A stretch of DNA of 23,953 nucleotides from a virus: positions 1 to 23,953 of IMG/VR virus record IMGVR_UViG_3300003324_000042. One strand, written 5' to 3'. Below the pieces are notes generated by a model. It searched no databases. It saw only the letters and a program-made list of their open reading frames with translations, and was not told where the DNA came from. Every line of letters begins with the position of its first letter. Positions within the stretch are counted from its first letter, which is position 1. The translations under genes and the position numbers were made by a program. Below are positions 1 to 23,850 of this stretch, piece after piece.

Positions 1-3000
1 GGAGCCATACCTCGAATCCACGTATAGTAGAAAATGAATCGCCTAGCGTATTTAGATTCCGCCGCCGCCAAATCAACTGCTGTAGGCGACCATTTCCTTA
101 CGAACTTGGTTGCGAATTCAACAGCATCATCAAGGTTGCGAAATTGCCGAGAGCGTAGAGCCCCTATAAATAGGGCGCCGCGCGTCCACGTATCCCGGTT
201 AGCAGTAAACTTATTAAGACTATATGGATTCTTCATTCCGAACTTAGGACGCAAAGGGTTAGCGAGCCGGTCAATTCCAGTCGTAACCTTATTAACCCCA
301 CGAACGAAAGCATTACCTCCTGTTCCAAGACCTCCCAAAGGATCGGTGAGGAAATCTTCTGCCATACCGCCCAAGTGAGCGGGAAGTGCAATACCATTTG
401 CCTGCATAATATCATACAGTTGCTTATCGGTAATCTTACCACCGCCACCAATGTTTCCAAAGAATCGCGTCGGGGATTCCATATCAGAACCGATTTTGAT
501 TTCTCCGGCAATATCTTGAACACGCTGGAACTTCTGAAATTCTGACAGTTCTTCGATATCTCCCACAGCATGCTTAAGAACCATTGCTGATTCTACATAC
601 AACTTGCTCTGAGAACCCTTAAAACCAATAGTATGCAATGCAAGGTTATTACGCCAAGTATCGCCGATCACTGACATAAGGTGGTGGCCCGGCTTCAGCG
701 TAGTCTGAGTCATTTTCAGAGTGCTGATAGTAGGGTCCATAACCTTAGTTACGAATGTATGCAATGCCGTACCGGGCTTAAATGAGCGGGATTCCGTCAT
801 TAGCCGACCGATATGAACCATTTCATCAATTACATACTGTGGGTAATACTTCGACGTATCAATAAGCGGGAATAGTGGATTGAGATTCTTAGGGTCCACT
901 ACACGCTTCATTGGAACGCCGTCAATTACACCGCCAACATCAGAACCGAAGTGCCTAGTAAAGGACGCGCCAATTGAAATGTCCTCAGACGTTTTAACCA
1001 TTGCGCCCATAAGTTTAGACATAAAATCTTCGACGTGCGTAATATCCCATTCTTTCCAGACTTGGTTCATTACTTCCGGTGTAGCATCCACAGGAACCTT
1101 ATATGAATCATTAAATCCGACGGACTTAAGAATCCTATTAAAGTGCGCAGGACCAACAGAGTTACGAGACAAGAAGTTGACCTTATTAGGATCAAACATC
1201 TGATTCATAACCTGTTCGACTTCACGAGCTACTTCTGTGGTTGCAGGTCCAGTCTGAACTTCCTTCATGGCAATACGGAGCATTTCAGGAGTATATCCCT
1301 TAGCCCGCCAATTCCTGATAATACCGTGGAATCCTGTCATAAGAAGCTGAGAGGCGTGCGAACTGGATTCAATCACATCAAAGGTCTTATTCAAACCAGT
1401 GCGCTTATTGAACCAACGGGAAGCTCCATACTTACGGTACAGAATATCCTTATTCAATTCGCGCATTGTAAGGTCGAACAGAATCTCAGTGTTAATCGTA
1501 TCCAGAGGCTTAGTCATTTCAGCGGCAATATCAGGATCAAGCCTATATGCCGCCGCATTGTTAGCCGCCGCATCACCTACGCCATTAACGTTCCTATTGA
1601 GCGCGCTGGCATGAGCCATTTCATCAGCATTTACAACAGACATACGGACAGTATCCGCATTCTCTCGCAATAGCTTTGCCGCTTCAGGATCGGTAATAGT
1701 AGCCAGTCGAGGATGAACTACGAGTTCAGAGAGGAAATCGCCAATAGAACCTGTATCCAGCGCTTCAAGAACCTTTGCCGAATACTCTGCCGAAGCCTCA
1801 CCAATTTCTTTGGCAACAGTTCCGCCAAAGACAGAAGCATTGCGCATATTAGTATTGATAAGGTTAGAGATAATACTCGGCTGACCATCAGCCATACCCT
1901 TCGTGAACTTATTGATAAGCTCCAAAGGAATATCCTGAAGGCGCTTAGAAGCTACCTTTTCAAATTCCTTAGGAGACTGCTTTTTGGCCAGTTCTACTAC
2001 AGACAGCTTTTCAGCCTGAGACTTAGCTTCCTTGAAAGCCTGAAGATAGGTTGTCTTGTATTCCTTATCCAGCGTCTGAAGAACAGCTTCATGGTTCTTA
2101 TTGATAGTCTTAATGTCAAGGTTATGTTCGATTTCCCGAATACCCTGAACATGCTTTCCATATTTACCCTGAAGAGAATCCAGAGCATTAAGAACCATAG
2201 CCTGAACATCAATCTTACCTTCAGGAGTCAGCTTAGTTGCAGACCTAGTAAGAACCTCAGCAAGGTCCAATACCGTAGACGGCAGATATTCCTGAATAGG
2301 CTGTTTGAATGCCTTTTTACCGTGGATATATTTAACCCGGTCGGCTTTAGACATAGCTCCGAATACGTCAGAAGGAGCCAGCCTTACGGCCAGCTTATCT
2401 CCCTGCATAGCCATATTGGTCAGATGTGGATCAAAACCAGCCAGCCTAAGCCGGTCGTCAATATCCTTCAGCGTAATCATAAACGCATCATCGTATTGAG
2501 CCTGAGTTTTGAACTTCATATCCCTTAGAGCCTGAGTGACCCTATCAATACGGTAAAGAGCAGACTGAGTATTGTATTTGGTTTCAAACTTTGCACCTTT
2601 CAAGTCTTTTGCAGCACTAGCACCACGGCGAGTACGGCGGGGACCAGCAGGAGCACGCTGAATATCAATAGTCTCTTTAAATATATCGTCCGCGAGATTG
2701 CGTAGCTCAGTGCCCCGAGGATGCATAGCAAGCTCAATTGCAGACTGCTTATAACGACTCTCAAGGAATTTCCTACTCTGCTCTGGATTAGCCGGAGTCT
2801 TAGCAGAAAGAATATCAGCAGGTGTGAATCCTTCTCCGGGAATAGCCAATTTGCCATGACCAGATACGCCGATCCAAGGCAAAGGGGTCTGACCCGTTCG
2901 CTTAGTTCCGTATTTACTAATATTCTTAGCCGCTTGTTTGAATTCGTCTGTGGACGAGAACGACCTAATAAACCGAGCAATCTCCTTTGGATCGTCAGTT

Positions 3001-4406
3001 CCTATGTGTTCGTATAGAGGCGCAACAGCAGACTTAGGAATAGTCCCATTACCAATATCACGAGCGATTGAGCGCAAATCTCCCACAGAGGTAACATCTG
3101 CAATATCCTCCATCTTAGAGCCTTGCTTAATAAGCGGTACATGCTCATAGCGGACGCCCAAATCAGTAAACTCAGAGTTCTTAACCTTCGCGATATCAAT
3201 ACCTTTAGCCGCTTTTGCGGCCAGCATAGTGGATACGTTATGGATTTGCTCAGGAGTATATACAGGCTTCCTATTGGTAGTCCTGAATTCGCCGAGAGAA
3301 TCTACAAGCTTTTCAGCGAATGTAGGTTCCTTTACCGACGAGAGGCCCACAACTTGCGGATCATATTTATACTTTTCAGGAGCAGTCTTAACGTTATCAA
3401 CGATATCAGCAGGGACAGTATCAGGAGTAGATTGGTCCAACTTTGACGCCAGTGTAGCCATATCACTGTCGGTAAGTTCGTCCAAATGCGCCGCAATTGC
3501 TCCTTCTTTATCGTCCATTGTTTTCGCAACGGCGCGCAATACAGCCGGTCGAAGCGTTTGCAGATTCTCCACAATATACCGCGCCTTTGCAGCATCGTCT
3601 GCATTCCGCATTTGACGCTTTGCAATACGCGACTGTTGTATATCGTATTGTTCCTGACGATATTTATTAAGTTCTTCACTTGCATTCTTCTTTACATTAC
3701 CCCAACGAGTATCCGCTACAGACTCGCTGAGTGCCCCTGTGCGCTCCGCAAGGGCCTTCTCGGCACTGAATGCCTTAGAGCCTCTAACAGCGCCTCTGGT
3801 GGCCGCTGTGGCCGCTCCCAGCCCTACTACATTCGTCGGGTCCAGCAGAATATCGCCAGCCAAGCCTCCCCAGAACTGGACATTACGAGATTCCGGGGAT
3901 TCAGTATCTATATTGGCTCGCTTTTGAAGATTCTTAACAGTATCTGACATAGTAGCTACGTCATTTGCATTACCAGCGGCGGCAGAAAGACCGTTAATCA
4001 AACCAGCAGATACAGCACCGCCGAATCCGCCAGCATTACCAATATAATCAGCCGCACCACCAAGCAAATCACCGCGTGCCATAGAAGCCGCGGCATCTGC
4101 AATAGCCTTTTTACGGTCCTCGTCAGTCTTAGTAACGAAGTTTGCGTAATTGCCGACTGAATATGTTCCCACAGAAAGAGCATCCAATATCCCCTTGATT
4201 ACAGGAGTATTGATTACATCTTCCCACCAATTGCCACTGCTATTAGAGGGCGCGTTTGTAGTAGGCAATGGTGAACGCGAGGCGGCACCAGCTACCGCAT
4301 TGGAGCCCATATTCCCAGTTCTCATAGGAATAGAAACTGCCGGTGCGATAGCCGGTGCCGTTGCCTTACGTCGGCCGTATACTCTCTGATAGAAGTCCTC
4401 AGCCAA
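1..4406 (-). CDS. Giant internal virion / ejection-type protein (C-terminus off window)
   Basis: This frame stays open from a TTG at 4404-4406 to the window edge: 1468 codons with no stop when read through on the minus strand. I chose the TTG because the mRNA reads AAGGGG, six bases, then TTG, just after the upstream stop; no ATG lies between. Residues about 108-150 and 178-210 are Gly/Ala-rich and could insert in a membrane, the second containing DILLDPTNVVGLG. The middle is Lys/Glu/Gln-rich and helical. Near residue 1238 is PGHHLMSVIGDTWRNNLA, and at the window edge RRFIFYYTWIRGMA. I associate this pair (a 'P-x-H-h-x-x-x-I-G-[DN]-T' block, then an aromatic 'FYTW' block) with very large phage structural or polyvalent proteins of unknown activity. 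The gene follows two internal-protein-type genes in a podovirus-like operon, so a virion protein ejected with the DNA is the best inference. I saw no polymerase or lytic catalytic motif. The true length is unknown. Confidence 0.85.
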   Translation of the reverse strand, partial: MAEDFYQRVYGRRKATAPAIAPAVSIPMRTGNMGSNAVAGAASRSPLPTTNAPSNSSGNWWEDVINTPVIKGILDALSVGTYSVGNYANFVTKTDEDRKKAIADAAASMARGDLLGGAADYIGNAGGFGGAVSAGLINGLSAAAGNANDVATMSDTVKNLQKRANIDTESPESRNVQFWGGLAGDILLDPTNVVGLGAATAATRGAVRGSKAFSAEKALAERTGALSESVADTRWGNVKKNASEELNKYRQEQYDIQQSRIAKRQMRNADDAAKARYIVENLQTLRPAVLRAVAKTMDDKEGAIAAHLDELTDSDMATLASKLDQSTPDTVPADIVDNVKTAPEKYKYDPQVVGLSSVKEPTFAEKLVDSLGEFRTTNRKPVYTPEQIHNVSTMLAAKAAKGIDIAKVKNSEFTDLGVRYEHVPLIKQGSKMEDIADVTSVGDLRSIARDIGNGTIPKSAVAPLYEHIGTDDPKEIARFIRSFSSTDEFKQAAKNISKYGTKRTGQTPLPWIGVSGHGKLAIPGEGFTPADILSAKTPANPEQSRKFLESRYKQSAIELAMHPRGTELRNLADDIFKETIDIQRAPAGPRRTRRGASAAKDLKGAKFETKYNTQSALYRIDRVTQALRDMKFKTQAQYDDAFMITLKDIDDRLRLAGFDPHLTNMAMQGDKLAVRLAPSDVFGAMSKADRVKYIHGKKAFKQPIQEYLPSTVLDLAEVLTRSATKLTPEGKIDVQAMVLNALDSLQGKYGKHVQGIREIEHNLDIKTINKNHEAVLQTLDKEYKTTYLQAFKEAKSQAEKLSVVELAKKQSPKEFEKVASKRLQDIPLELINKFTKGMADGQPSIISNLINTNMRNASVFGGTVAKEIGEASAEYSAKVLEALDTGSIGDFLSELVVHPRLATITDPEAAKLLRENADTVRMSVVNADEMAHASALNRNVNGVGDAAANNAAAYRLDPDIAAEMTKPLDTINTEILFDLTMRELNKDILYRKYGASRWFNKRTGLNKTFDVIESSSHASQLLMTGFHGIIRNWRAKGYTPEMLRIAMKEVQTGPATTEVAREVEQVMNQMFDPNKVNFLSRNSVGPAHFNRILKSVGFNDSYKVPVDATPEVMNQVWKEWDITHVEDFMSKLMGAMVKTSEDISIGASFTRHFGSDVGGVIDGVPMKRVVDPKNLNPLFPLIDTSKYYPQYVIDEMVHIGRLMTESRSFKPGTALHTFVTKVMDPTISTLKMTQTTLKPGHHLMSVIGDTWRNNLALHTIGFKGSQSKLYVESAMVLKHAVGDIEELSEFQKFQRVQDIAGEIKIGSDMESPTRFFGNIGGGGKITDKQLYDIMQANGIALPAHLGGMAEDFLTDPLGGLGTGGNAFVRGVNKVTTGIDRLANPLRPKFGMKNPYSLNKFTANRDTWTRGALFIGALRSRQFRNLDDAVEFATKFVRKWSPTAVDLAAAESKYARRFIFYYTWIRGMA

Positions 4407-4426: not shown

Positions 4427-5782
4427 TTAAAGATTCGCATAGTTAGTAGCGATCTGAGCCGCCATAACATCGTTAATACCGTATTGCTGGCCATACTTTT
4501 TAATAAGAGAAGCCATATATGCCGAACGGTTTGCGTCAGGAGGTACTGCCTGCATTTCAGGTGAAGTTAGAACCTGAGACAGAACCTGAGTTGCAATCTG
4601 TCCCTGATCCTGTCCATATGTCGAAACAAGATCATTAGCCAAATTGGTAAATCCCATAGGCTGTGGCATATTCTTCATCTGTTGCAGTGCAAGATCATTA
4701 GCATACTTTTCACGCTGGAATGCTTGATCTTCCATTTGCATACTCTGACCAAATAGATCGTTATAACGCTGACGATCAAAGTTACGATTCTGTTGCCAGT
4801 TATCGTAATCAGCCTGCTGTGCCTGCTGAATCATCTGGTTCTTAGCGTTATTGTAATCGCTATTCGCTTCTGCTTCAGCCATACCCAATTGACCCAGAAT
4901 ACCCTGCAATTGCTGAGCCAAAGCCGCTCGCCTTTCAGCACCCTGCTGACCTATAGAGTTAGCAACTGTCTGATTATAAGCAAGATTGGTAGCACGATCA
5001 CCAACAGCATTAGCGCGCTCTGCGCCGCCACGAGAAGTAATACTAGCAATACCCTGATTATAAGCCGAGTTATCTGAGGGAGTCGCGCCCGAAGCTTCAA
5101 TACCCAAGTTCTTAAGCATTGCAACGCGCTCTGCTTGTTCTTTTGCTTTTTGGGCATTAAGTGCTTGGACTGCCTGATCCTGATTAGATTGAAGCCCGGC
5201 AATTTGGTCATTGGCAATATCATTGAACGTAGCCTTGCCAGTGGTTTCAACGTCTCGTTTCATTGCATCATGCATATTAGCGATGTTCTGATCCGAAACG
5301 CTGAAGTTGTTATTGGCATTCGTCCTAATACCAGCAATAGATGAAAGACGAGATTTAAGAGCCTGATCCAATGCGCTTGTATCAACATTCCCCTTGAAAC
5401 CGCCATATGGATCATCAAGCCTATCCAATAGCTGTTCCATAAGAGAAGGTTCATGCGGAGCTTCTGGTAATGGCGGATTCAAACGAGGATCCATTTGCGC
5501 TTTCTTAGCCGCATACATATCATCTGGAACCTGTCCAAATGCCTGAGCTTTTTGTTCCGCATAGTTACCCGCTGGCCAGCCAGTAAAGGGTGTTTTATTA
5601 GAAACAGCCGATTTTGGCTGAGCGGGCCTACCATATTCACGCTCGAATTTAGGTTCATTCATCCTGCGGTCATATTCAGGCATACCAGAACCGGGATGGA
5701 GAACCTGTTGCCGCTTCTTTTCATCAAGCGGTTTAAACAGGTCCTCCCACCAGTGGCCAATTTGGCCCCAAAGATCGACCAT
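4427..5782 (-). CDS. Internal virion-type structural protein, Gln/Asn-rich coiled coil
   Basis: 451 residues. Two ATGs are adjacent (5785 and 5782). AGGAG sits only two bases before the first and five before the second, so I prefer 5782; the difference is one residue. The N-terminus is Trp-rich and amphipathic (LWGQIGHWWEDLF), followed by a Pro-rich polar stretch to about residue 110. A long, highly polar helical region then runs to about residue 350, dominated by Gln, Asn, Ala and Arg, with the look of a coiled coil. No cysteine or enzymatic motif is visible. It lies between a second coiled-coil protein and the giant frame, with eight bases to the upstream stop, so the three probably form one structural module. 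Internal core or ejection protein is inferred from context and composition only; a tail-appendage role is possible. Confidence 0.75.
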   Translation of the reverse strand: MVDLWGQIGHWWEDLFKPLDEKKRQQVLHPGSGMPEYDRRMNEPKFEREYGRPAQPKSAVSNKTPFTGWPAGNYAEQKAQAFGQVPDDMYAAKKAQMDPRLNPPLPEAPHEPSLMEQLLDRLDDPYGGFKGNVDTSALDQALKSRLSSIAGIRTNANNNFSVSDQNIANMHDAMKRDVETTGKATFNDIANDQIAGLQSNQDQAVQALNAQKAKEQAERVAMLKNLGIEASGATPSDNSAYNQGIASITSRGGAERANAVGDRATNLAYNQTVANSIGQQGAERRAALAQQLQGILGQLGMAEAEANSDYNNAKNQMIQQAQQADYDNWQQNRNFDRQRYNDLFGQSMQMEDQAFQREKYANDLALQQMKNMPQPMGFTNLANDLVSTYGQDQGQIATQVLSQVLTSPEMQAVPPDANRSAYMASLIKKYGQQYGINDVMAAQIATNYANL

Positions 5783-5790
5783 CATATCTC

Positions 5791-6621
5791 CTAGAAGTTA
5801 TTAGCGTCTTTGAGTGCCTGATCTGCGGCCATACGCTGAAGTGCCGCGCGCCTTGCATTACCACGACCAATGGTATTCTCAGACCGATAATCAGCCAAAT
5901 CATTATCTGCCTGATTCTTATTGGTAGTTTGAATCTTACCAATATTGGTACGAGCATCGCGGAAACGTCCCGCATTCTGTTCTTTACTCTGGTCGAATAG
6001 ACCCGAATAAGAAAGACCGCGAGCCGCGAAATCCTCACCCAAAGCATTCTGAGCGACGCCTTCGTTGCGGTTAGTCATTGAAGTAGCATCAGCCGCATCC
6101 TGATCGAATACCTGCTTACGCTTTGTAATACGGTCAATAAAGGACTGCAAAGCCCTATCATATTCACCGATTTGCGCGGCATAATCAGAATCTCCGCCGA
6201 GCCATTTATTCTGCTCGGCAATCTTTGCTGTGGGACCAAGCTTTGAATACCATTCAGCACCACCTACTACAGGAGGCGGGGGAGGCGGTGGTGCAGAAGG
6301 AATACCAGCACCAATACTATTTCCCAATGCTCCACCATCACCGGGGCCAAAAGGCTGGAATGGCATTGTTTGAGCAGGAGCCTGCCATGCAGGAGCGGGA
6401 GCTTGATATACCGGCTGAGGATTCCATTGAGCCTGATAAGACGGAACGGAAATAGGAGCGGCATTAGTACCAGCACCCTGCGACCATTGTTTAGTAACAC
6501 CGCTTTGAGTGGCTACCCTCGGAGCATCGTAATGAAGCTTTACGGGAGCCGCTTTAATAGGCGGCGCAGGTGGCTTATAAGCCTGATTACCCATATCGGA
6601 TAGTTGCACACGAGCAACCAT
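5791..6621 (-). CDS. Pro-rich / coiled-coil structural protein (internal virion or tail-associated)
   Basis: 276 residues from ATG 6621. A longer in-frame start at 6777 exists but would overlap almost all of the 72-aa gene upstream. The 6621 start has GAAGAAGG seven bases upstream and overlaps nothing, so I use it. The N-terminal half (to about residue 115) is low in charge and rich in Pro, Ala and Gln, ending in a run of seven prolines (APPPPPPPVV). The C-terminal half is charged and helical, with an FAARGLSYSGLFDQS segment of a type I recognise in many phage structural proteins and an Arg/Ala-rich tail. The shape resembles a flexible arm joined to a coiled coil. It is placed between the nozzle-like gene and the other internal proteins. 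The exact role is unknown. Confidence 0.75.
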   Translation of the reverse strand: MVARVQLSDMGNQAYKPPAPPIKAAPVKLHYDAPRVATQSGVTKQWSQGAGTNAAPISVPSYQAQWNPQPVYQAPAPAWQAPAQTMPFQPFGPGDGGALGNSIGAGIPSAPPPPPPPVVGGAEWYSKLGPTAKIAEQNKWLGGDSDYAAQIGEYDRALQSFIDRITKRKQVFDQDAADATSMTNRNEGVAQNALGEDFAARGLSYSGLFDQSKEQNAGRFRDARTNIGKIQTTNKNQADNDLADYRSENTIGRGNARRAALQRMAADQALKDANNF

Positions 6622-6622
6622 T

Positions 6623-6841
6623 TTAAAGCCTTCTTCCCTTATTTGCCTGTCGAAGCAATAAGTTTCGCTTAACGTTGTTGGTTGTGTCTCTTTGTAAATA
6701 CCCTGCGGGATTAACAGAGCCAGCACCAAACTGAGGACTGGGAGAAGTACCATTATAAATACGACTCCCAGTTGCATACCTGTTTGCTAGAGTTCCCGGT
6801 TTATTGGGGTCTAGACGCTTCATTGCCCCAAAACTTGCCAT
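6623..6841 (-). CDS. Small conserved-type basic protein (72 aa)
   Basis: 72 residues, rich in Gly, Ser, Arg and Asn, with no long hydrophobic stretch. The centre reads GSRIYNGTSPSPQFGAG, then VNPAGYLQRD, and a basic helical tail. I recognise a VNPxGYxxRD core followed by a basic helix from small proteins in actinophage structural operons, from memory only; no function is known to me. GGAGG lies 12 bases before the ATG, a longer spacing than usual. The stop is two bases before the next ATG, and that gene's ribosome site lies inside this one's last codons, suggesting translational coupling. The close fit between neighbours and the codon pattern support a real gene. Confidence 0.65.
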   Translation of the reverse strand: MASFGAMKRLDPNKPGTLANRYATGSRIYNGTSPSPQFGAGSVNPAGYLQRDTTNNVKRNLLLRQANKGRRL

Positions 6842-6859
6842 GACTTACATTATCCTCCA

Positions 6860-8947
6860 TTACGTCGAAGAGTCAACGACCTCTTGTTTAGTGGCAATAT
6901 ACGTGGTGAGGCTAAAGAACTTAACATCACCAGTTGGCTTATTACCCATCGTTGACATTCTAATAACGTAGGATATCTGCCTGAATCGCAATGCCTTTCC
7001 AAGCTTCTTGAAATAACGTCCGTTTTCGGATGCAACCGTATCTGCTTCCAGAATATTGGTTACATCGAATGAGACATTAAGCCAGCTTAGTGGGTTTCCC
7101 CACAGACCTTGTTGAAGCTGAGCATGTGTATATGCCTGCAAATCTCCCCATGTAATAGGAGCTACCCTAGAAACCGGGCGAACTTCAGTCAAAACGTCCC
7201 TAAACGTCTTAACGTCAATACCAGCCCAGAATAGCTTCTTAAAGTTACCGGGAGTCTTGTAGTCATAGCTCTTGGTTTGGAAATAACAGTCGATATACTC
7301 CACAGCAGACGGCTGATCTGGATATGTATCCGTAATCCTCATTACATTGAACGGGGATACGGCCGATTTCCTAATAAAAGTCGGTGAATCAATAGTTATT
7401 GCGCCAGCAGCATTGAGCCGTATTCCAACACGAGCAAGAATAGCCCCAGCAGGAGCAGTAAAATCGAAGGACTTAAGACCTGTAGTATTAAACGAGGCCG
7501 ACGTACTAGTGCTTGTCGAACCGTTTGCGAGAAGATACACAACGTCGATAACACAAGCAACGTTAGTAGCGCTGACATTAACGCTAAAGGTAAACTGTTG
7601 TGAAGTAGCCACTCTAAGATCATATTCAGTATCCGATCCCGTAGTGTTGAATTTAAATGTAGGAGTACCGGCAGTTCTGGTGATAGTTACATTAGGAGTA
7701 GCATACGTAACTGTAGCTCCAACCACAGCCGCCCTAGCCGCTTTAATAACAGGATCAAGAAAGCTGAAATCCTGAATCATATTGGCAGATACAGACTGGG
7801 CAGTTCCTCTTGAAGCCGCATAAAACTGCGAAGGGGAAGCTGAATTGGAATCAGAAGGCATTTCATACCATCTGCCGGGAGTACCGCTATATGTCCGCCA
7901 TTGGCTCCATGCTTTTGTATCCACAGAAAAGCAATACAGAGCATTAAAATACCGAACGAGCAAACGCCTATTGACGATACTTAGCTCAACGCCTACAGCC
8001 GTCGAATCGACCCCAAGTGCATCTTCATCAAACAAGACGAAACGATTGATTTGCGTGAAATTGGAGTTGACCATTTCGTAGACACGACCTTGGTCGTATA
8101 CATACATATAGTTCTCGAATTCCACGACGGCATTTTTACCGGCACAACCGACATTACCTGAAATCTTATCCACAATACCTTGTGAGGGTTTAGAGGGATA
8201 AGCAAATCGCCAAGTACCGTCTGTTTTGAATACGATAAGGTTATTGAAGCTAGGCACCAGCGCGGTAATAAATCCGCCTTCACCGGGAGCAACATCAAAG
8301 AAATCAGAAGCGCCCCATGTTTCTGGGTGCGGACCTGTCGCGTCAACTGTCGAGAAGAATACCCTGTCCCCATTTAGATTTTCGCCTGTTCCAGATACCC
8401 ATAGCCGGGTTTTCCAGCTAATCATTACGGAACCTTTGGGCATGGATGCAATAGCAGAGCCGCCTACGCCAGAGCCTTTCTTCCAACGGAAACCAGTATC
8501 TGTTGCTGAAGATTCCACATTAAAATATAGCCAGTCCTTGAACTGAACCATAGACGTGACCTTATTAATAAGGCCGACACTGTTCTTAATTACGGTGATC
8601 GTCTCACCGGTTCCAATTACCCCATTAAGGTAAGCTTTTACAGTAGTATTTACGTTAGTTGTCCCGTCTGTGGGAACAACAACAATCAAATACCATTCTG
8701 TAGAGCTAACCCTATATACACCAAGAATCTCCCAACCAAGAGTATTGGTGGCAGGTAGTGTGGAACCGGCGAGAGCTTCGATAGGAGGTCGAGAAGTTAA
8801 CGCTTCATCGACCGTAACCTCAAAATTAACCAAATCAACGACTTCAGTATCCCTTGCTTCGCCTGCATTGGATACGTTATTAAGGCCGCCAGTAAAAGGA
8901 CCAATGGTTACGGCAGTCTTGCTATAAACCTGCTTAGAACCTGCCAT
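6860..8947 (-). CDS. Tail nozzle / tail tubular protein B-like protein
   Basis: 695 residues, almost entirely beta-strand-like and rich in Thr, Val, Ser and Asn. The N-terminus has a FTGGLNNVSN segment followed by an E..DLVNFEVT...LTSRPP pattern, which resembles the opening of podoviral tail-nozzle proteins (T7 gp12-like: 'GGLN ... L.N ... G.L..RPG'). Repeated aromatic-flanked strands in residues about 60-370 fit a beta-propeller-like body. The later part contains a Ser/Thr-rich beta region that may be an inserted jelly-roll. It starts in a TAATG overlap with the adaptor gene, the usual neighbour of a nozzle gene. The length is within the range of such proteins. The family call is by pattern and position; sequence identity to T7 is not claimed. 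Confidence 0.7.
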   Translation of the reverse strand: MAGSKQVYSKTAVTIGPFTGGLNNVSNAGEARDTEVVDLVNFEVTVDEALTSRPPIEALAGSTLPATNTLGWEILGVYRVSSTEWYLIVVVPTDGTTNVNTTVKAYLNGVIGTGETITVIKNSVGLINKVTSMVQFKDWLYFNVESSATDTGFRWKKGSGVGGSAIASMPKGSVMISWKTRLWVSGTGENLNGDRVFFSTVDATGPHPETWGASDFFDVAPGEGGFITALVPSFNNLIVFKTDGTWRFAYPSKPSQGIVDKISGNVGCAGKNAVVEFENYMYVYDQGRVYEMVNSNFTQINRFVLFDEDALGVDSTAVGVELSIVNRRLLVRYFNALYCFSVDTKAWSQWRTYSGTPGRWYEMPSDSNSASPSQFYAASRGTAQSVSANMIQDFSFLDPVIKAARAAVVGATVTYATPNVTITRTAGTPTFKFNTTGSDTEYDLRVATSQQFTFSVNVSATNVACVIDVVYLLANGSTSTSTSASFNTTGLKSFDFTAPAGAILARVGIRLNAAGAITIDSPTFIRKSAVSPFNVMRITDTYPDQPSAVEYIDCYFQTKSYDYKTPGNFKKLFWAGIDVKTFRDVLTEVRPVSRVAPITWGDLQAYTHAQLQQGLWGNPLSWLNVSFDVTNILEADTVASENGRYFKKLGKALRFRQISYVIRMSTMGNKPTGDVKFFSLTTYIATKQEVVDSST

Positions 8948-9609
8948 TAGTAATCACTGTCCCCCGGCAAAAGAGTAATAGTCGGATAGGTATTCTGCTC
9001 AGATTGAGTCCTGTTAGCCAGTTTCTGCATCGAAATCTCGAATTGCTGGTCATATGCCTGAGCCGCTTGAAAGTTTTCATCCATATTCATAGCCTGCTTC
9101 ATTACATAAGTAATAATGGCATTGAAATAGGAATCTGGAACCGTCAATACGTCACCAGTAGACTTGTTTTCTGGGGGACGGGCTAAAAAAAAGTCCTGTA
9201 AACCGCCAGTAAGACTCGTTTGAGGAACTGGCCAAAGGTTTAGAGTGCCTGCGTATTCATACCAGAACGTTGGAGTGCCGTTATTCTGACTGGAAGTATT
9301 CCGAATGATGTATTCCTGCGCAGATTGAAAGCTCATATTACGCAAAATCTGCCCATCATAGTGGACAGACCGTACAATTTCGATATTCGGAATGGATGCA
9401 AGGATTGGATATTGGTATGTCCCAGCAGTGACGTTAATAGAAACAACCGTGGCATTGATTTCAGGATTGTTCATAATAACTTCACGCTGGGCATCGTCTA
9501 CCCAACGAATAATATCCGAGTCTGTAAGCTGAACACCAGATTCGTCACCGAATTGACGTTTAACCGTAATCAGTACGTCTTGTACTGTTTTAGTCTTTCT
9601 CTCGATCAT
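8947..9609 (-). CDS. Head-tail adaptor (connector) protein
   Basis: 220 residues. The N-terminal 50 residues (VQDVLITVKRQFGD..., LTDSDIIRWVDDAQREVI) match the helical pattern of gp6/gp4-type phage adaptors, in which a short helix precedes 'D.....WlN.aq.ev'. A central beta region follows, then LARPPENKSTGDVLTVPDSYFNAIITYVMKQA, the typical late segment where a 'vP..y..ai..yv...A' helix packs against the ring. Such proteins form a dodecameric ring below the portal that receives the tail nozzle. It overlaps the preceding 158-aa gene by 20 bases and the nozzle gene by one, so all three are probably co-translated. Confident on role class, less on exact family. Confidence 0.75.
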   Translation of the reverse strand: MIERKTKTVQDVLITVKRQFGDESGVQLTDSDIIRWVDDAQREVIMNNPEINATVVSINVTAGTYQYPILASIPNIEIVRSVHYDGQILRNMSFQSAQEYIIRNTSSQNNGTPTFWYEYAGTLNLWPVPQTSLTGGLQDFFLARPPENKSTGDVLTVPDSYFNAIITYVMKQAMNMDENFQAAQAYDQQFEISMQKLANRTQSEQNTYPTITLLPGDSDY

Positions 9610-10066
9610 CGTTCAATCCTAGCGTTGGGTAGCTGTTTTCACTACCAATCTTATGCCCATTCAACTTGAATGTATGCTTATTTGAGTGAGCAACGGTATG
9701 AATAATATCAGCCCGTTCATCACTGCGTTCACGCGCCGCCTTAGCACGCTGTTCTTCCTCGAATTTGATTTGCTTCTGGAGCTTGTCCCATACATCAATT
9801 CGCTGGCTATCATGTTCCCACAGCCAATTGAAAATATAAGCTCCATGAACCATAAACTGGTGCATGCGATGGATAATGGCGATTTGATTACCCATTCTAT
9901 CAATCTGCACAATAGCGAACGGGCGGTCGTCGTCTGGGCCTCGATCTTCTGGTGGAATCCATGCTAGCGAAAGGTTAGGATATTTATCGTTCAATTCCTG
10001 AGCGAGATTAATCATTTCCTGACTTAGCTGAAAACCCTGCCCGGCGAGCCAAATCTGATCTGCCAT
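9590..10066 (-). CDS. Unknown 158-aa protein upstream of the adaptor
   Basis: I start this at ATG 10066 (MADQIW), which has AGGA eight bases upstream. A GTG at 10099 would add 11 residues but overlaps the 48-aa gene and has a poorer ribosome site. The N-terminal half carries LSLAWIPPEDRGPDDDRPFAI and a beta-like segment. The middle is aromatic and His-rich (HRMHQFMVHGAYIFNWLWEHD). The C-terminal third is a charged helix with many Glu, Arg and Lys, then a polar tail. It is soluble-looking, with no catalytic motif I can name. Position before the adaptor and overlap with it suggest a virion assembly or structural role. Similar proteins exist in actinophage operons as far as I remember; their function is not known to me. 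Confidence 0.75.
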   Translation of the reverse strand: MADQIWLAGQGFQLSQEMINLAQELNDKYPNLSLAWIPPEDRGPDDDRPFAIVQIDRMGNQIAIIHRMHQFMVHGAYIFNWLWEHDSQRIDVWDKLQKQIKFEEEQRAKAARERSDERADIIHTVAHSNKHTFKLNGHKIGSENSYPTLGLNDDREKD

Positions 10067-11981: not shown

Positions 11982-12548
11982 CTACGGCAATAGTACGAAA
12001 TAAATAATACTTGCTCCAGAAGTTAGAGAAGCATCCGTAATAGTGGCGGGAAGATCAGTCTGCGCCGAATATGCGGCCATATGCGGAGCTTGGAAAACTT
12101 CTGATGCCGGAGCACCGTTATTTCCCACCATTGTCGGAGTAGCCACCGCAGTAACAACCAAAAGTCCTACTGCATAGCGAGTACCCTTATACTTAGTAAA
12201 GGGTGCTGAAAGGGCCTTTGTATATACAGTATTGGTTGCGGCCAATAGAGTAGTGTCATTTGGAGTTGAAGCTACAAGAGTCAAATCTCCAGTCGCATCA
12301 TCTACCTGATAAATACCTACCCTAACAAGCGTAGGAGTAGCCGCCGCCGCAGTACCTCCAGAAATCATTCTGACCTGCGTTACGGTTTCTGTTTTACCGG
12401 CCGTAAAGAAAGTCATACGGAGAGAGCCAGAAGAAGTTGAAAGACCTGTAGATTGAATAGCTTTTCGACTATATACAGATTCTCCCACAGAAAGGGTGGA
12501 GTCGTCGTATTGCAGACGAGTTGCTTTGTCGTAATCCATCGTTGGCAT
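11982..12548 (-). CDS. Beta-rich structural protein after the capsid gene
   Basis: 188 residues rich in Thr, Ala, Val and Ser, with strands separated by Gly and Pro turns (MTFFTAGKTETVTQVRM, TPTLVRVGIYQVD, YAVGLLVV). This is the profile of a jelly-roll or fibre-head domain. There is no transmembrane segment and no catalytic motif. AAGGAC lies five bases before the ATG. It comes directly after the major capsid gene, but a strong hairpin separates the two, so its expression level may differ from that of the capsid protein. A capsid decoration protein, or a receptor-binding or adhesion domain, would fit; the sequence does not choose between them. Confidence 0.65.
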   Translation of the reverse strand: MPTMDYDKATRLQYDDSTLSVGESVYSRKAIQSTGLSTSSGSLRMTFFTAGKTETVTQVRMISGGTAAAATPTLVRVGIYQVDDATGDLTLVASTPNDTTLLAATNTVYTKALSAPFTKYKGTRYAVGLLVVTAVATPTMVGNNGAPASEVFQAPHMAAYSAQTDLPATITDASLTSGASIIYFVLLP

Positions 12549-16963: not shown

Positions 16964-17240
16964 CGTCTGTTAATCCTCCCGGTCGCGCACAACGCTCCCT
17001 AAATGCAATTTGATCGTCTGATTCAGGTTCTTCCATAGGAGCAGTCTCTTGCTCTGGCGCAATCTGCTTTAGAATGGCATATGCCTGAAGGTCTTTGACG
17101 CTTAGAAGCTCGCTTTGCTTATGGTTTAAATCCAGCAGACGGATCATCTGTTGATTCTGAGTTCTCAGAACTAGGAACCACATCAGATTCGTCAGAATGA
17201 AGATTCCTATAAAAACCGTCAACGGCAATGTCCAATTCAC
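16917..17240 (-). CDS. Small membrane protein upstream of the portal (107 aa)
   Basis: 107 residues from a GTG start. One transmembrane segment spans about residues 5-26 (LPLTVFIGIFILTNLMWFLVL). It is followed by a polar helical region with coiled-coil character and an acidic C-terminal half, ending in a TDDEKLYFRAKGFDVAD motif. The gene overlaps the previous gene by 122 bases and the portal gene by 47, in different frames. That is unusually deep overlap, but the hydrophobic helix and fit to neighbours favour a real gene. The GTG has GAGG about 13 bases upstream, a weak site, so a later start is possible. Function unknown. Confidence 0.5.
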   Translation of the reverse strand: MNWTLPLTVFIGIFILTNLMWFLVLRTQNQQMIRLLDLNHKQSELLSVKDLQAYAILKQIAPEQETAPMEEPESDDQIAFRERCARPGGLTDDEKLYFRAKGFDVAD

Positions 17241-17520
17241 GGCGAAGCTCTTCCTCTGCCTTTGGCAGTCTATTAACGCGAGACTTAAGATGCTGGATTT
17301 CCTGCATCATTTGAGCTACTTCATCTGTGGTCGCCATACCCAATGTGCGAGCCATTTCGATAATATCATCCTGATGGATATAAACGGACCCGTCATATGA
17401 TTCAAGCGTTACAGCCAGATCAAATACGGGTCCGCGGCTATCCTGATGAATAAGATCGTAAAACGGGCTTGCCATAGGTCGTTCCCACAGAAGGAATCGG
17501 CTACTTCTGAACTCCGTCAT
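17119..17520 (-). CDS. Unknown 133-aa protein with coiled coil
   Basis: I use ATG 17520 (MTEFRSS), which overlaps the preceding gene's last 20 bases; an upstream ATG at 17529 and a TTG at 17541 are alternatives with no better ribosome site. The N-terminal half has FYDLIHQDSRGPVFDLAV and a beta-like SYDGSVYIHQDDIIEMA region. The middle is a coiled coil (VAQMMQEIQHLKSRVNRL). The last ~30 residues are acidic, Ser-rich and disordered-looking. No motif points to an activity. It sits between the terminase and portal genes. Function unknown. Confidence 0.6.
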   Translation of the reverse strand: MTEFRSSRFLLWERPMASPFYDLIHQDSRGPVFDLAVTLESYDGSVYIHQDDIIEMARTLGMATTDEVAQMMQEIQHLKSRVNRLPKAEEELRRELDIAVDGFYRNLHSDESDVVPSSENSESTDDPSAGFKP

Positions 17521-18055
17521 TATCTTCATCTTTCTTTTCAAACTGGTCTAGGAAGGTCGAGTCAATTTCCTCCCTTTGTTCTTCCTGATCCTGACGTACA
17601 TCTTCTTCCTTCTTTTCAAGGTTTTCTTGATGTGTTTCGGATTCAGGATTACGCTCGTCCTCGGCGCCAATTTCATCAACAGTTTCCTGCTTTTCAGATT
17701 TCGGCAATTCAGGAACTTCGCTAAAGCCTTTATCGTCGGCTTCGCGGACCAATAGTTCTTTACGAACTCCCGGGTCCTCTACGTCTACTACTTCAACATT
17801 AGGATCGGGGAAACCTTCACCTTCTACAATTGAAGAGTTGAAATTCTTTTTGGTCAAAGGACGCTGACCTGTAAAGGTCTTTGGCATTTGACGAGGCTGA
17901 TAATCCGGGTCATTCAAAGGAACTTCCGGTACATACTTCTCTTTAACCATATGCTTACGACGTTCTTCCTCATTGTCGTAATCAGCAGTTTCCGCGCCAA
18001 GCGGCATACCACTAGCGTCATAAGGTGAATCGTGCCACGGTTTGCGGCTAGGCAT
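17501..18055 (-). CDS. Acidic, largely disordered protein after the large terminase
   Basis: 184 residues, very rich in Glu, Asp and Lys, with few hydrophobic residues after about residue 90. The N-terminus (PWHDSPYDASGMPL) and the segment YVPEVPLNDPDYQPRQ are Pro/Asp-rich with aromatic residues. The C-terminal half is almost all charged (for example EKKEEDVRQDQEEQREE) and ends with a short possible interaction helix, STFLDQFEKK. It begins in a TAATG overlap with the large terminase gene. Composition suggests a flexible linker or chaperone-like factor in packaging or head assembly; this is inference. No family recognised. Confidence 0.7.
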   Translation of the reverse strand: MPSRKPWHDSPYDASGMPLGAETADYDNEEERRKHMVKEKYVPEVPLNDPDYQPRQMPKTFTGQRPLTKKNFNSSIVEGEGFPDPNVEVVDVEDPGVRKELLVREADDKGFSEVPELPKSEKQETVDEIGAEDERNPESETHQENLEKKEEDVRQDQEEQREEIDSTFLDQFEKKDEDNDGVQK

Positions 18056-19587: not shown

Positions 19588-19798
19588 TTAGAGCTTCCTT
19601 TTTTGCCTCTGCGGCCTGATCTGCACTAATACTAGAATAGATATTGGCCCACAGGGAGAGAAATATGATATATGGTAAACTGTCTTTCCACCATAAATAA
19701 GCTGGTGGAACATTACATATCATAAATACTGTTGCCCACCAATGCGGACGCGCTTTAAGTGACGGTATGTGTTTACGCAGTCGTGTTATCTGTCGCAC
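19553..19798 (-). CDS. Small membrane protein between fibre-like genes and the large terminase (81 aa)
   Basis: 81 residues from a GTG with a poor ribosome site; it overlaps the end of the 102-aa gene by 26 bases, so coupled translation is likely. The N-terminus is strongly basic (eight Arg/Lys in the first 18 residues). Two hydrophobic segments follow at about 21-36 (WWATVFMICNVPPAYLW) and 41-57 (LPYIIFLSLWANIYSSI), then a Lys/Ala/Glu-rich C-terminal helix. The layout is a two-helix hairpin with both ends inside. Membrane protein between fibre-like and terminase genes is an odd place for a holin; role unknown. Confidence 0.6.
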   Translation of the reverse strand: MRQITRLRKHIPSLKARPHWWATVFMICNVPPAYLWWKDSLPYIIFLSLWANIYSSISADQAAEAKKEALNAKKSETNSES

Positions 19799-20081
19799 CT
19801 AATTGCACCAATGCGTCAATAATACTCACGATTGAAGTTGCAGTTCCACGAGTCCCGCTTAGCGTGAAGCCTTCCAATAACTGAACACTCGTCGAACCGT
19901 CATGATTATGCGACCCCGGAGAAGCTTGATTAGCGCCTGAGCCAAGCGAATGATGATGGCTATTAGCATCTTTATCAAGATCGTCATTGCTGTGGAATTC
20001 ATTTACTGTTCTCGCATCCGGCCTAAGACCAGAATCAACAGATGAACCTTGTCTATTATTGCTGAGTTCAGAACCAGCCAT
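19773..20081 (-). CDS. Fibre-like structural protein with His-rich tip motif (102 aa)
   Basis: 102 residues. The N-terminal 35 residues are polar. The centre reads ANSHHHSLGSGANQASPGSH, continuing into NHDGSTS, with HHH and HNH clusters. A hydrophobic strand (FTLSGTRGTATSIVSIIDAL) then ends the protein. His-x-His clusters in phage fibres can bind a metal ion along a trimer axis, which is known for some tail-fibre tips; applying it here is inference. The protein overlaps the 168-aa gene by one base (TAATG), so the two are likely partners in one appendage. I recognise this HH..LG.G..QA..G.H.HDG pattern from actinophage genomes. Confidence 0.65.
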   Translation of the reverse strand: MAGSELSNNRQGSSVDSGLRPDARTVNEFHSNDDLDKDANSHHHSLGSGANQASPGSHNHDGSTSVQLLEGFTLSGTRGTATSIVSIIDALVQLGATDNTTA

Positions 20082-20587
20082 TATGGGTTACCATCCCATC
20101 GGTATACTAGAAATGCATTAATTTCAGAACCAGTGGGTGCTGTATATGCGGCACCAGAACTATTCAAAAGCAAATCACCGGTTGATTGTTCAACACCGAT
20201 AGCCAATAGCTGACCCTGACCACCGTTCTTATTCATAGAAACGGTTGCAATAGGAAATGCGTGCGGTGCTGTCTGTGGCCTAAACCCAGCAGGCACAAAC
20301 GCAGGCAAATGAGTTGGCGCGGCCGTATTTGCGGCAATAACAATACCACCAGCGTTATCAAAGTCGATACCAATCTCCGCAACTACAATTCCCACAGAAG
20401 CGATTGACAGTCGCGTAAACTTTGAAGAAGTGCCGACCACACTGTTTGTATTGTAAGTGCCGTTTGCCTGTGCACCTAATACCAATGCCGCGTCGATCGC
20501 ATCCATATTATTATTCAGCACACTGAGCGCATATTGCTCCAATGTGGTTGGTTTAACCAGCCCAAGTCGGGTAGTTACTGTACTCAC
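20081..20587 (-). CDS. Fibre / receptor-binding-type structural protein (168 aa)
   Basis: 168 residues from GTG 20587, overlapping the small terminase stop by four bases (GTGA), with AAGGGG eight bases upstream. The N-terminus VTTRLGLVKPTTLEQYALSV followed by LNNNMDAIDAAL is a recurrent opening of phage fibre and minor tail proteins, probably a trimer attachment segment. The rest is beta-rich with Gly, Ala and Thr turns and a closing EINAFLVYRWDG strand, like a fibre-head jelly roll. Its location between the two terminase genes is unusual for a tail gene and may indicate a head or neck fibre. Host-binding role inferred. Confidence 0.65.
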   Translation of the reverse strand: MSTVTTRLGLVKPTTLEQYALSVLNNNMDAIDAALVLGAQANGTYNTNSVVGTSSKFTRLSIASVGIVVAEIGIDFDNAGGIVIAANTAAPTHLPAFVPAGFRPQTAPHAFPIATVSMNKNGGQGQLLAIGVEQSTGDLLLNSSGAAYTAPTGSEINAFLVYRWDGNP

Positions 20588-21614: not shown

Positions 21615-22061
21615 TTATTGAAGCCCTCTGATTTGAGCGATGCGCTGAACCAATTGGATCGGCACACCTTTCATCTTACCAGCTGAATACTTCTGAATAA
21701 CATAGGGATGAATCTTCAATAGCTTACAAAATGAATTGATATTATCCGGGACTTTATTCATCCCACAGACGGTCGAGCGCCATTCGTTGAATAGCACATA
21801 GTCGGTGACCATTTGGTTGCCTGTGCTAGGGAGGCGAACTTTAAATAGCTCTGAATCAATCCATCGTTCGTATTCGGATTCGAGTCTGGCTTTTGAATAA
21901 CCAGTGAGATAGTGCAAACCTTCTAATAGAGCAGGCGGCATCGTTGGATACATACCTTGTTCAGCTTTAAGGACTACCTGCTCAGTAATAGCGCATTGGG
22001 ATGCGATCTGCTTCTGAGTTAGATTGAAGTCCTCTCTGATTTGGGTGATATTGTTTTTCAT
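21615..22061 (-). CDS. Helix-turn-helix regulator (XRE-type N-terminus, second C-terminal HTH)
   Basis: 148 residues. Residues about 5-40 read ITQIREDFNLTQKQIASQCA and ITEQVVLKAEQGMYP, a clear XRE/Cro-type HTH in which TQKQIA and the following helix give the recognition unit. A second HTH-like unit lies at about 107-146 (NSFCKLLKIHPYVIQKYSAG, then VPIQLVQRIAQIRG). The middle is helical with a WxxxxF-like core. AAAGG lies eight bases before the ATG, behind a sigma70-like promoter. It is the first gene of the leftward operon, so it may repress its own promoter and the facing rightward promoter, or activate late genes. I cannot tell repressor from activator. No integrase is visible in this window, so lysogeny is not shown. 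Confidence 0.8.
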   Translation of the reverse strand: MKNNITQIREDFNLTQKQIASQCAITEQVVLKAEQGMYPTMPPALLEGLHYLTGYSKARLESEYERWIDSELFKVRLPSTGNQMVTDYVLFNEWRSTVCGMNKVPDNINSFCKLLKIHPYVIQKYSAGKMKGVPIQLVQRIAQIRGLQ

Positions 22062-22203: not shown

Positions 22204-22238
22204 TTGATATATCACCAGCATCAGCACTGATATATCAA
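22204..22238. promoter_or_regulatory. Paired palindromic operator-like sites
   Basis: Two copies of the perfect 10-bp palindrome TGATATATCA (22205-22214 and 22228-22237) lie 23 bp apart centre to centre. With one more base on each outer side they form an 11-bp inverted repeat around a 13-base spacer. They lie between the divergent promoters. The nearby HTH regulator is the natural candidate binder. The 8-bp tandem TATATACT at 22266-22281 lies close by. Confidence 0.55.
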
Positions 22239-22307
22239 TACGCGACAATAGATATCCAACTGATCTATATACTTATATACTTTGAATATATCTTATCAAT
22301 TTCCCAA

Positions 22308-22341
22308 ATAGGGTTGTATATGCCCTATACCATGCTAGAAT
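22308..22341 (+). promoter_or_regulatory. Rightward extended -10 promoter within a dyad
   Basis: -35 TTGTAT (22314-22319), 16-base spacer, -10 TAGAAT (22336-22341) preceded by TGC, an extended -10. The dyad ATAGGG/CCCTAT (22308-22313 and 22323-22328) brackets the -35, as an operator would. The TATACCA box begins 12 bases after the -35 start, as in the leftward promoter. The transcript would have a leader of about 100 bases before the first gene, containing AAGGAGG without a nearby start and a short GGGG/CCCC hairpin. Confidence 0.6.
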
Positions 22342-22446
22342 TGATACATAAGGAGGCAAGGAAAGGAATAAGGGGAAAGGCTCCCCAAATAATAAAAGGG
22401 CAGACCCCGAACCAGTAATACAAGACACCCTGAAAGGTTGATTCAA

Positions 22447-22692
22447 ATGGCTAAGCATCGCATATCGTACCGGCAATTGCTTGAAGCTAGGTGGGAGGCT
22501 AAGAAAGTAATCAATGCTCTAAAGCAAATTGAGACTGCTCTCCCGGTCGATATGCATCTTCCTAATCAATGCCAGACTATTCTTAATAAAACCCGTTGTG
22601 CTCTTAGGGATTTCGATTCAATCAAAACAGATTGGCTTAATGAATCAAACCGTAAACAATGGGAATCAGATAACTTTGGAGAGGTATTCTAA
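22447..22692 (+). CDS. Small helical protein, first gene of the rightward operon (81 aa)
   Basis: 81 residues from ATG 22447 with AAAGG nine bases upstream. An in-frame TTG at 22438 would overlap that site, so I reject it. The protein is basic at the N-terminus and helical throughout (YRQLLEARWEAKKVINALKQ), with two Cys (about 42 and 51) and an acidic, aromatic C-terminus (DNFGEVF). No family recognised. It is followed in a TAATG overlap by the 74-aa gene. Its place behind a regulated-looking promoter suggests early expression. Confidence 0.75.
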   Translation: MAKHRISYRQLLEARWEAKKVINALKQIETALPVDMHLPNQCQTILNKTRCALRDFDSIKTDWLNESNRKQWESDNFGEVF

Positions 22693-22916
22693 TGTTTAAA
22701 TTCACAGTCAAATGCAAGGGCGCAGAAACTGAGATTGGTGAATTCCTAGGCTGGCATCAGCTTGAACAATTGGTACATACACAATGCAGTGAATCAGTAT
22801 GGGAGTGGTTTGATTCCCTAATCCGCACAAAGCACTTGCTGGAACTCACAGCGGAGCATCTTGTCACAGTGGCAAGCAACGGCATGACAGTCGTCTATCA
22901 GATCAAGGAGTCATAA
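22692..22916 (+). CDS. Small unknown protein, second gene of the rightward operon (74 aa)
   Basis: 74 residues, starting inside the TAATG overlap with the preceding gene and using its GGAGAGG ribosome site. It begins with a beta strand (FKFTVKCKG), then a GWHQLEQLVH helix, a SVWEWFDSLI helix, and two closing strands (HLVTVASNGMTVVYQI). This gives a small alpha/beta domain. No motif I can name. Probably made together with the preceding protein. Confidence 0.75.
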   Translation: MFKFTVKCKGAETEIGEFLGWHQLEQLVHTQCSESVWEWFDSLIRTKHLLELTAEHLVTVASNGMTVVYQIKES

Positions 22917-22942
22917 ACCGACTAGAAATTTGCCCAATACAG

Positions 22943-22972
22943 TAGACAGCACGCTATACCACACGGTACACT
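22943..22972 (+). promoter_or_regulatory. Promoter of the Lsr2-like gene
   Basis: -35 TAGACA (22943-22948), 18-base spacer, -10 TACACT (22967-22972). The spacer holds TATACCACAC starting 12 bases after the -35 start, in exact register with the leftward promoter at 22123, and both continue with a matching ACATAT after the -10. The boxes are moderate on their own; the shared layout is the main evidence. Confidence 0.5.
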
Positions 22973-23022
22973 AGACATATGGCCACACCGGGCCAGCCCA
23001 AACACAAACAAAGGAAAGTACA

Positions 23023-23688
23023 ATGTCACTCGAAGCAATCAACTGGGATTCTGCCAAAGCCTCCGCAGAGGATGCTCCCGCCGATCTGAAGCTCCTTGAT
23101 ACGGTAGTTCCCGTTTACAATCACATCGTTGATTTGGTTGCACAGTTCAAGAAGGTTGAAGATTTGGACGCCGCGGTCGCAGAAGCGGTTGAATCTTCTG
23201 ATGATGAAGAAGTCAAGAAGTGGAAAGAAGAAGTTGCAAAAGCTGAAAAGCTTATTGCCGCTCGCAATGCACAGATTGACGAAAAGGTTCGCAAGCAGGT
23301 TGAATCCGAAATTGCTCCCGATTTCGATAAAGGCAAGCTCGTTGCGGATTACAATGATTCCCGCGCCGCTCTCAAAAAGAATGGCACTGGTATTCGGGAT
23401 ATGTTCAAGCTTCTTGGATATGTCGAATCTGAGACTTCTCCCGCTGGCCGTGAATCCAATTTCAAGGGCAAGACTGAATCTGGCAAGATTCTTCTTCAGG
23501 TGCTGGATATCCCGAAGCTTGAAGGTGAAAAGGTACAGACCGGCGCATCTGAAGCTGTAAAGGAATTCAACCGTAACGCAAAAGAGTGGGGCCGTAAGAA
23601 TGGCTTTACCGTAGCAGATAAGGGCGCACTTTCTACCGAACTGAAGGAAAAGTATTCAGCCGCCACCAATACGCCTATCCCGTCTTAA
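23023..23688 (+). CDS. Lsr2-like C-terminal domain DNA-binding protein
   Basis: 221 residues, AAAGGAAAG before the ATG. The N-terminal ~50 residues are helical and Ala/Asp-rich. A highly charged helix follows (about 60-95, Glu/Lys, coiled-coil-like). A middle region holds SRAALKKNGTGIRDMFKLLG and an EGEKVQTG stretch. The C-terminus (about 178-215) reads VKEFNRNAKEWGRKNGFTVA, then DKGALSTELKEKY. This follows the actinobacterial Lsr2 DNA-binding pattern 'v..WA..nG..v..rGrip..v..aY'. The RGR minor-groove motif is here KGA, so DNA affinity or specificity may differ. Lsr2 is a nucleoid xenogeneic silencer, so a phage version could bind phage DNA or interfere with the host protein. The gene has its own promoter and terminator. 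Confidence 0.6.
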   Translation: MSLEAINWDSAKASAEDAPADLKLLDTVVPVYNHIVDLVAQFKKVEDLDAAVAEAVESSDDEEVKKWKEEVAKAEKLIAARNAQIDEKVRKQVESEIAPDFDKGKLVADYNDSRAALKKNGTGIRDMFKLLGYVESETSPAGRESNFKGKTESGKILLQVLDIPKLEGEKVQTGASEAVKEFNRNAKEWGRKNGFTVADKGALSTELKEKYSAATNTPIPS

Positions 23689-23701
23689 TAGGCAATAGAT
23701 T

Positions 23702-23728
23702 AGGGCCGTCCAATAGGGCGGTCCTTTT
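23702..23728 (+). terminator. Intrinsic terminator of the rightward operon
   Basis: AGGGCCGTCC pairs with GGGCGGTCCT over 10 bp, with two G-T wobbles, around an AATA loop, followed directly by a T run (TTTTCT). It lies 14 bases after the Lsr2-like gene stop. Confidence 0.85.
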
Positions 23729-23751
23729 CTATGCCCAAAATCGCCTAGAAT
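23725..23751 (+). promoter_or_regulatory. Weak promoter candidate after the terminator
   Basis: TAGAAT (23746-23751) is preceded by ATGCCC (23731-23736), the same two elements found in the rightward promoter at 22314-22341, with a spacing one base shorter. The -35-like TTTTCT lies in the terminator T run. It could drive the gene beginning near 23920. The match is partial and the -35 poor. Confidence 0.3.
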
Positions 23752-23830
23752 AAACCGGGTGGAGCTAAGTAAGCAGGTCGCCTCATATTAAGTTATGCAT
23801 ATAGGGCCACCGGCCCGTCCTCTATCAATA

Positions 23831-23850
23831 TGCTTTCCCACAGAAAAGCA
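23831..23850. repeat. TCCCACAG repeat copy inside a 6-bp dyad
   Basis: TGCTTT and AAAGCA form a perfect dyad around CCCACAGA. This is the only intergenic copy of an octamer found 11 times in the window. The hairpin GGGCC-ACC-GGCCC lies just before it at 23804-23816. Confidence 0.5.

Follow-up and report, generated by a model that had tools for sequence, protein, structure and literature searches.

RSF1010 RepB' is a site-specific AEP primase partnered with a RepA-type hexameric helicase, and RSF1010 replicates by strand displacement from two ssi sites at one origin. RepB' (ssiA/ssiB sites, RepA helicase) also provides the closest solved fold (3h20, 3h25) to the primase domain and helical bundle of the phage analysed here, in which, unlike in RSF1010, primase and helicase are fused and at least 20 candidate sites are spread over the genome. 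NrS-1 PrimPol, a phage-encoded AEP primase-helicase, likewise needs an 8-nt template site to make primers: it requires TTTGGTTA or GTG(A/G), begins synthesis mostly at the base immediately 5' of the site and is thought to read it through its helical-bundle domain, and the pRN1 primase uses GTG (PMC8718748, PMC7102993). The NrS-1 genome, however, carries only two copies of its 8-mer, centrally placed, so a site-specific primase need not have dozens, and those papers describe no dispersed family of lineage-private sites for it. T7 gp4 is similar in that it joins primase and helicase and starts lagging-strand primers at defined template words, 5'-(G/T)2GTC-3', with a contribution from 3' flanking bases (PMC12839067); it differs in being of DnaG type and in using a pentanucleotide that is frequent by chance, whereas our phage has a predicted AEP-type enzyme and a long, over-represented word. 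Cluster A stoperators resemble that word in being short, asymmetric and dispersed, with one conserved half and one variable half (positions 9-13 invariant, positions 2-8 tracking immunity, in passages of PMC5559632), but they are described as intergenic and repressor-bound, whereas the sites described below are intragenic, of mixed orientation and do not co-occur with the HTH gene.

An over-represented octamer in a Jasmine-like phage

The window, meaning the whole 23,953-nucleotide stretch that was analysed, belongs to an actinophage, as the original prediction had implied. It is related to Jasmine (Jasminevirus), an Arthrobacter podophage presented in passages of PMC5513430 as a podovirus that has terminal repeats and carries an Lsr2-like gene. 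MCP, portal and tail-like proteins are ~38-51% identical to those of Jasmine, Adat and Casserole (Arthrobacter), DS1 (Cellulosimicrobium) and Shocker (Microbacterium), with lower identity (32%) for the tail-like protein in DS1 and Shocker. The window has its own gene for an Lsr2-like nucleoid protein (23023-23688, + strand), the Jasmine homologue of which sits in the terminal repeat.

Eleven copies of the octamer TCCCACAG had been predicted in the window, and every coordinate and strand proved exact. Three lie on the + strand within the giant late gene (561..568, 3081..3088 and 4167..4174). Two lie on the - strand, at 6228..6235 in a 328-aa ORF (5791-6777) and at 8668..8675 in a 695-aa ORF (6860-8947). 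The remaining six are again on the + strand: 9816..9823; 12483..12490, in a 188-aa ORF (11982-12548); 17483..17490, in ORF 17119-17541; 20390..20397, in a 168-aa ORF (20081-20587); 21761..21768, within the gene for a 148-aa HTH regulator (21615..22061, - strand); and 23836..23843, which is intergenic. Both predicted near copies are there too, CCCCACAG at 7098..7105 (+), a variant also enriched in Jasmine-like phages, and GCCCACAG at 19647..19654 (+), the most frequent form in relatives G006 and G009. A further place, 9171..9178 on the - strand, is polymorphic, reading TCCCCCAG in the window phage and exact TCCCACAG in sister contig G001 (99.6% identical).

The over-representation is real and goes beyond codon use. 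Dinucleotide shuffles of the window gave a mean of 0.53 copies (maximum 4; 0 of 100 reached 11), in keeping with the predicted chance expectation of less than one. Sites inside window genes are read in three frames, scored on CTGTGGGA, the form that a TCCCACAG site takes on the opposite strand, which bears out the claim that the octamer is read in differing frames. Synonymous-codon shuffling across all window genes left 0.70 copies (maximum 4, n=1000) against the 10 observed in genes, so that protein or codon constraint does not explain the word. The excess extends past the window: the complete virus record (30,543 bases, or 30.5 kb, window included) holds 13 copies, ranking TCCCACAG first among its octamers at 11-fold above a third-order Markov expectation, and G001, with 99.57% identity to the window phage across 18,822 bases, contributes another 11.2 kb with 7 extra copies, for a total of 20 in ~41.8 kb.

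The octamer had further been described as lying mostly in one orientation. The count of 9/11 on the + strand is correct, but the bias is not significant in the window (p=0.07), the record (9/13, p=0.27) or the sister contig (10/16, p=0.45), and biases in relatives are mixed or opposite to it. With 10 of the 11 window sites inside genes, and copies almost wholly intragenic and in both orientations across the genomes examined, one-sided stoperators pointing along transcription do not fit, nor does an RNA-level tag, many copies being antisense. The start-associated sequences (SAS) of actinophages, which lie just upstream of start codons in passages of PMC7302621, were set aside because the window sites lie inside ORFs.

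Lineage-private words with a shared half

Relatives retain an enriched octamer, as predicted. Jasmine, Adat and Casserole hold 19-23 copies of TCCCACAG each (~1 expected) and 44-47 copies of CCCACAG each (~3 expected), and TCCCACAG is among the top enriched octamers in Jasmine. Other related contigs have private words of their own, CTTTACAG, CGCTACAG, GGCGACAG, TCCGACAG and CCTACAGG, all of which fit NNNNACAG and read CT|GTNNNN on the other strand; in distant relatives the 3' half is unchanged and the 5' halves differ. Copy numbers are high and sites occur in both orientations across the genomes examined: 45 copies of CTTTACAG in Shocker (0.13 expected), 28 of CGCTACAG in G004 and 56 in G026, 52 of GGCGACAG in G058, 48 of CGCGACAG in G063 and 40 of TCCGACAG in G045. 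DS1 has AGCGACAG, ctEqG8 has CCTACAGG, and GGCTACAG and others are further relatives' words with the shared 3' half. The passages of the phage papers Klyczek 2017 (PMC5513430), Pope 2017 (PMC5559632) and the Microbacterium phage study (PMC7302621) do not report these motifs.

Shocker (L043), G016 and G021 hold two enriched words, CTTTACAG (29-45 copies) and, more weakly, TCCGACAG (13-18 copies). The latter is the word of neighbours of Shocker and its relatives, and the pair is perhaps the relic of a word switch.

Individual sites turn over, since only 6 of 40 homologous places in relatives keep exact TCCCACAG and 15 of 40 keep CCCACAG. The site at 4167 is retained as TCCCACAG in Jasmine and reads GCCCACAG in G006 and G009; that at 3081 reads GCCCACAG in G006 and CCCCACAG in Jasmine; that at 9816 reads GCCCACAG in G002, G005 and G007 and TCCCACAG in G012 and G032; and that at 17483 is retained in L036 and L037. 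At the places homologous to 3081, 4167 and 9816, the first base has changed from T to G in the G006/G002/G005 group, and the same substitution at several sites suggests a concerted change of the word.

The word tracks the primase domain

The window phage has a primase-helicase of 591 aa, encoded outside the window on the overlapping sister contig (L021/L162:3305-5080) and adjoined there by a DNA Pol I gene (4980-6896). That contig also encodes an exonuclease, a Sak4-like ATPase, a small SSB-like protein, a RuvC-like protein and WhiB. In a large clade comprising G017, G027, G028, G029 and their relatives, the primase domain and the bundle-helicase part occupy separate or interrupted frames.

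We compared gene presence and absence over 19 genomes, 16 with the motif and 3 relatives without it. The primase N-terminal domain was present in 16/16 of the former and 0/3 of the latter and was the only tested gene so distributed; HTH, Lsr2, WhiB, SSB, RuvC, Sak4, SNF2, exonuclease, helicase domain and MCP were each mismatched in at least one genome. Every motif-bearing genome whose sequence spans the region has the primase. One motif-less relative amounts to a natural deletion. It is a complete Jasmine-like phage contig (L296-L298; G010:C11) in the Streptomyces griseosporeus JCM 4766 assembly, 46,429 bases long with 51% GC, its start repeated near its end as a terminal repeat. This phage retains TerL, portal, MCP, the giant gene, WhiB, Sak4, exonuclease, SNF2, RuvC and a 361-aa helicase-only protein; its complete contig encodes neither primase domain nor Pol I, which makes dependence on host replication probable, and the contig has no ACAG word, the best being GGAACAG (12 vs 6.4).

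Fetching genomes by primase gave a concordant picture. Among 58 IMG/VR contigs of at least 12 kb, gathered by primase-helicase protein similarity alone, 46 showed clear enrichment of an NNN(N)ACAG word whose 5' half is clade-specific, in a comparison for which the control words GACA and CAGA are poor controls because they overlap the motif itself. Enrichment was weak in some primase-bearing contigs (for example G024, L176 and L237). Single-sequence scans with SNF2 and primase proteins returned few loci.

A reader role for the primase predicts distinct words in phages that combine a related primase-helicase with unrelated virions and hosts. CCACACC is 5.5-6.7-fold enriched in Cozz and Emalyn (Gordonia), JacoRen57 (Mycobacterium), Serbin (Serratia) and Lebethron (Pseudomonas); GCCACAC is 6.5-fold enriched in Knox (Microbacterium; word GGCCACAC), and GGCACAC 6.3-fold in Amigo (word GGCACACC). 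Amigo and Jasmine have the same Arthrobacter strain as host and different words. CCCACAG itself is unenriched in phages of that strain, Arthrobacter sp. ATCC 21022: Amigo has 0 copies (4.2 expected) and, from three other clusters, Maggie has 1 (1.4), Glenn 3 (1.9) and PrincessTrina 4 (2.4). BFK20 (L161), whose gp43 has a Prim-Pol domain, holds 78 copies of GCCGGGG (8.2 expected), an excess to which base composition may contribute. Apart from that of BFK20, the words all contain T-G-T on the reading strand (CCT|GTGGGA, CCT|GTAAAG, CCT|GTAGCG, CCT|GTCGGA, GGT|GTGG). On that strand the sites read CCTGTGGG in Jasmine and GTGTGCC in Amigo. The word tracks the primase domain, independently of host and virion genes.

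Other candidate readers of the word

Pol I is the nearest competitor in this distribution. It is found in 16/16 motif genomes, and in the Streptomyces phage it disappeared along with the primase domain, a case that alone cannot separate the two, and the site might be read by or with Pol I or an unlisted primase partner, for primer hand-off or a replication pause, instead of by the primase domain itself. We consider this unlikely: ctLwi270 has a Pol I homologue (1e-21) and lacks both the primase domain and any such ACAG word, and we know of no 8-nt template specificity for family A polymerases, which counts further against it.

Another phage protein, whether the RecB/Cas4-like exonuclease, Sak4, SNF2, RuvC or the helicase domain, could use the word in recombination or DNA processing, and these genes are indeed conserved in most motif-bearing genomes. 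The Streptomyces relative nevertheless has all five and no motif, and Cozz and Emalyn have a motif without a Sak4 or RuvC match, Emalyn also without an SNF2 match, which makes a reader of this kind quite improbable. WhiB was rejected as reader on its distribution over the 19 genomes, and a resemblance to DnaA boxes was set aside because the word is lineage-private.

The original prediction drew a parallel with stoperators and named the 148-aa HTH regulator as one candidate binder. An HTH repressor would then block transcription from scattered asymmetric sites as in cluster A actinophages, a reading to which the half-invariant word and the HTH protein encoded in the window lend some colour. The gene distribution disfavours it: Jasmine, G006 and G032 share the word and have no match to the HTH gene, and the motif-less Streptomyces relative does have one. 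With the sites lying in genes in both orientations, and no integrase seen in the genome parts examined, we hold a stoperator role to be very unlikely.

The word is short, non-palindromic, dispersed and in both orientations, as would suit a Chi-like site read by host recombination or defence machinery to which the phage adapts, a parallel that had also been suggested; the absence of CCCACAG enrichment from Amigo, Maggie, Glenn and PrincessTrina on Jasmine's host, among the phage genomes compared, and the sharing of CCACACC by phages of Gordonia, Mycobacterium, Serratia and Pseudomonas leave it little credence. Equally implausible is a DNA-architecture site, bound on duplex DNA at even spacing by an Lsr2-like or other structural protein for genome folding or packaging, for although an Lsr2-like gene lies in the window and pooled sites are even in two genomes (see below), Lsr2-like genes were matched only in the window phage, Jasmine and G032 among the genomes compared, and per-strand regularity exceeds strand-shuffled controls.

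Predicted primase structure and a proposed priming model

We built an AlphaFold2 model of residues 1-330 of the window phage primase from an alignment of 38 sequences. The model (pLDDT 89.6) has an alpha/beta domain followed by a helical bundle, and its best PDB matches are RSF1010 RepB' (3h20, 6e-9), the PrimPol of cyanophage S-2L (6zp9, 1e-7) and RepB' with initiator DNA (3h25); the pRN1 primase ranks lower. By this predicted fold, the window phage encodes an AEP primase of RepB'/PrimPol type.

We judge it probable that the phage's own primase recognises TCCCACAG on the template and initiates there, and that it does so for lagging-strand priming over the whole genome. The enzyme would consist of an AEP (RepB'/PrimPol-type) domain and a helical bundle fused to a RepA/RecA-like helicase. 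The template strand of a site would read 5'-CT|GTGGGA-3'; the helical-bundle domain may recognise GT and the next 3-4 bases on exposed single strands, and the primer would begin with A opposite the T just 5' of the recognised bases. With roughly one site every 1-2 kb on both strands, lagging strands could then be primed throughout the genome, and each phage lineage would have its own 7-8 nt word, changing with the primase. We infer that the primase directly recognises the word, starts at the T and serves Okazaki priming.

Across 31 genomes, same-strand gaps are evener than random (Stouffer z -3.9) and evener than after strand-label shuffles on the same positions (z -2.6), although single-genome tests are mostly weak; such evenness would fit a need for regular starts on each strand separately. 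When the two strands are pooled, sites in G000 and G004 are evenly spaced as well, which the priming model does not require.

The word also follows the primase in evolution. The 3-base variable label changes 12 times on the primase tree compared with 22.9 in shuffles (minimum 19), although primase-helicase gene trees are partly confounded with genome trees. Position 288 of the primase (K-F/Y-x-x-R, in the helical bundle) is Tyr in 8/8 primases from phages with G before ACAG in the word, and covaries in the same direction in ~2.8 of 4 independent pairs, a number at which significance is unreachable. Among the main doubts are the weak enrichment in some primase-bearing contigs and the occurrence of close primases whose words differ although no patch that sets specificity could be located. 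The primase of G050/L195 is 57% identical to that of Shocker, yet its word is TCCGACAG, not CTTTACAG, and we found no primase segment separating CTTTACAG users from TCCGACAG users.

More broadly, it seems likely, if a little less so than for this one phage, that phages with RepB'-type primase-helicases have genome-wide, strand-balanced priming sites of 7-8 nt, in a lineage-private, half-fixed and half-variable word that co-evolves with the primase, so that lagging-strand starts are hard-wired and readable from the genome. Primases are usually viewed as using sites of 2-5 nt that chance alone makes sufficiently frequent; the viral primase family considered here seems to have acquired long, rare words, which genomes seem selected to scatter. 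If true, these genomes naturally document primase specificity across many lineages, Okazaki starts would be predictable from sequence, matched primase/word pairs could be used to learn how the helical-bundle domain reads DNA, and programmable priming enzymes are suggested. Such sites might also account for over-represented words in phage genomes that have so far lacked an explanation.

Other repeated words

Further repeated words were seen beside these. In G038 (L182), CACGGTCA/ACCGTGGC words occur ~24 times in 20 kb and are probably a local repeat array, and BFK20 also holds the 11-copy families CAGTTCCAG and TTAGGCTGT. Neither the sister contig nor relatives have a second octamer, GCATTACC/GGTAATGC, among their listed top words. 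The record of the window phage has 11 copies of it against 1.15 expected, at window positions 310, 3967, 4033, 5855, 10146, 10165, 11904, 21088 and 21514 and at record positions 25329 and 28847.
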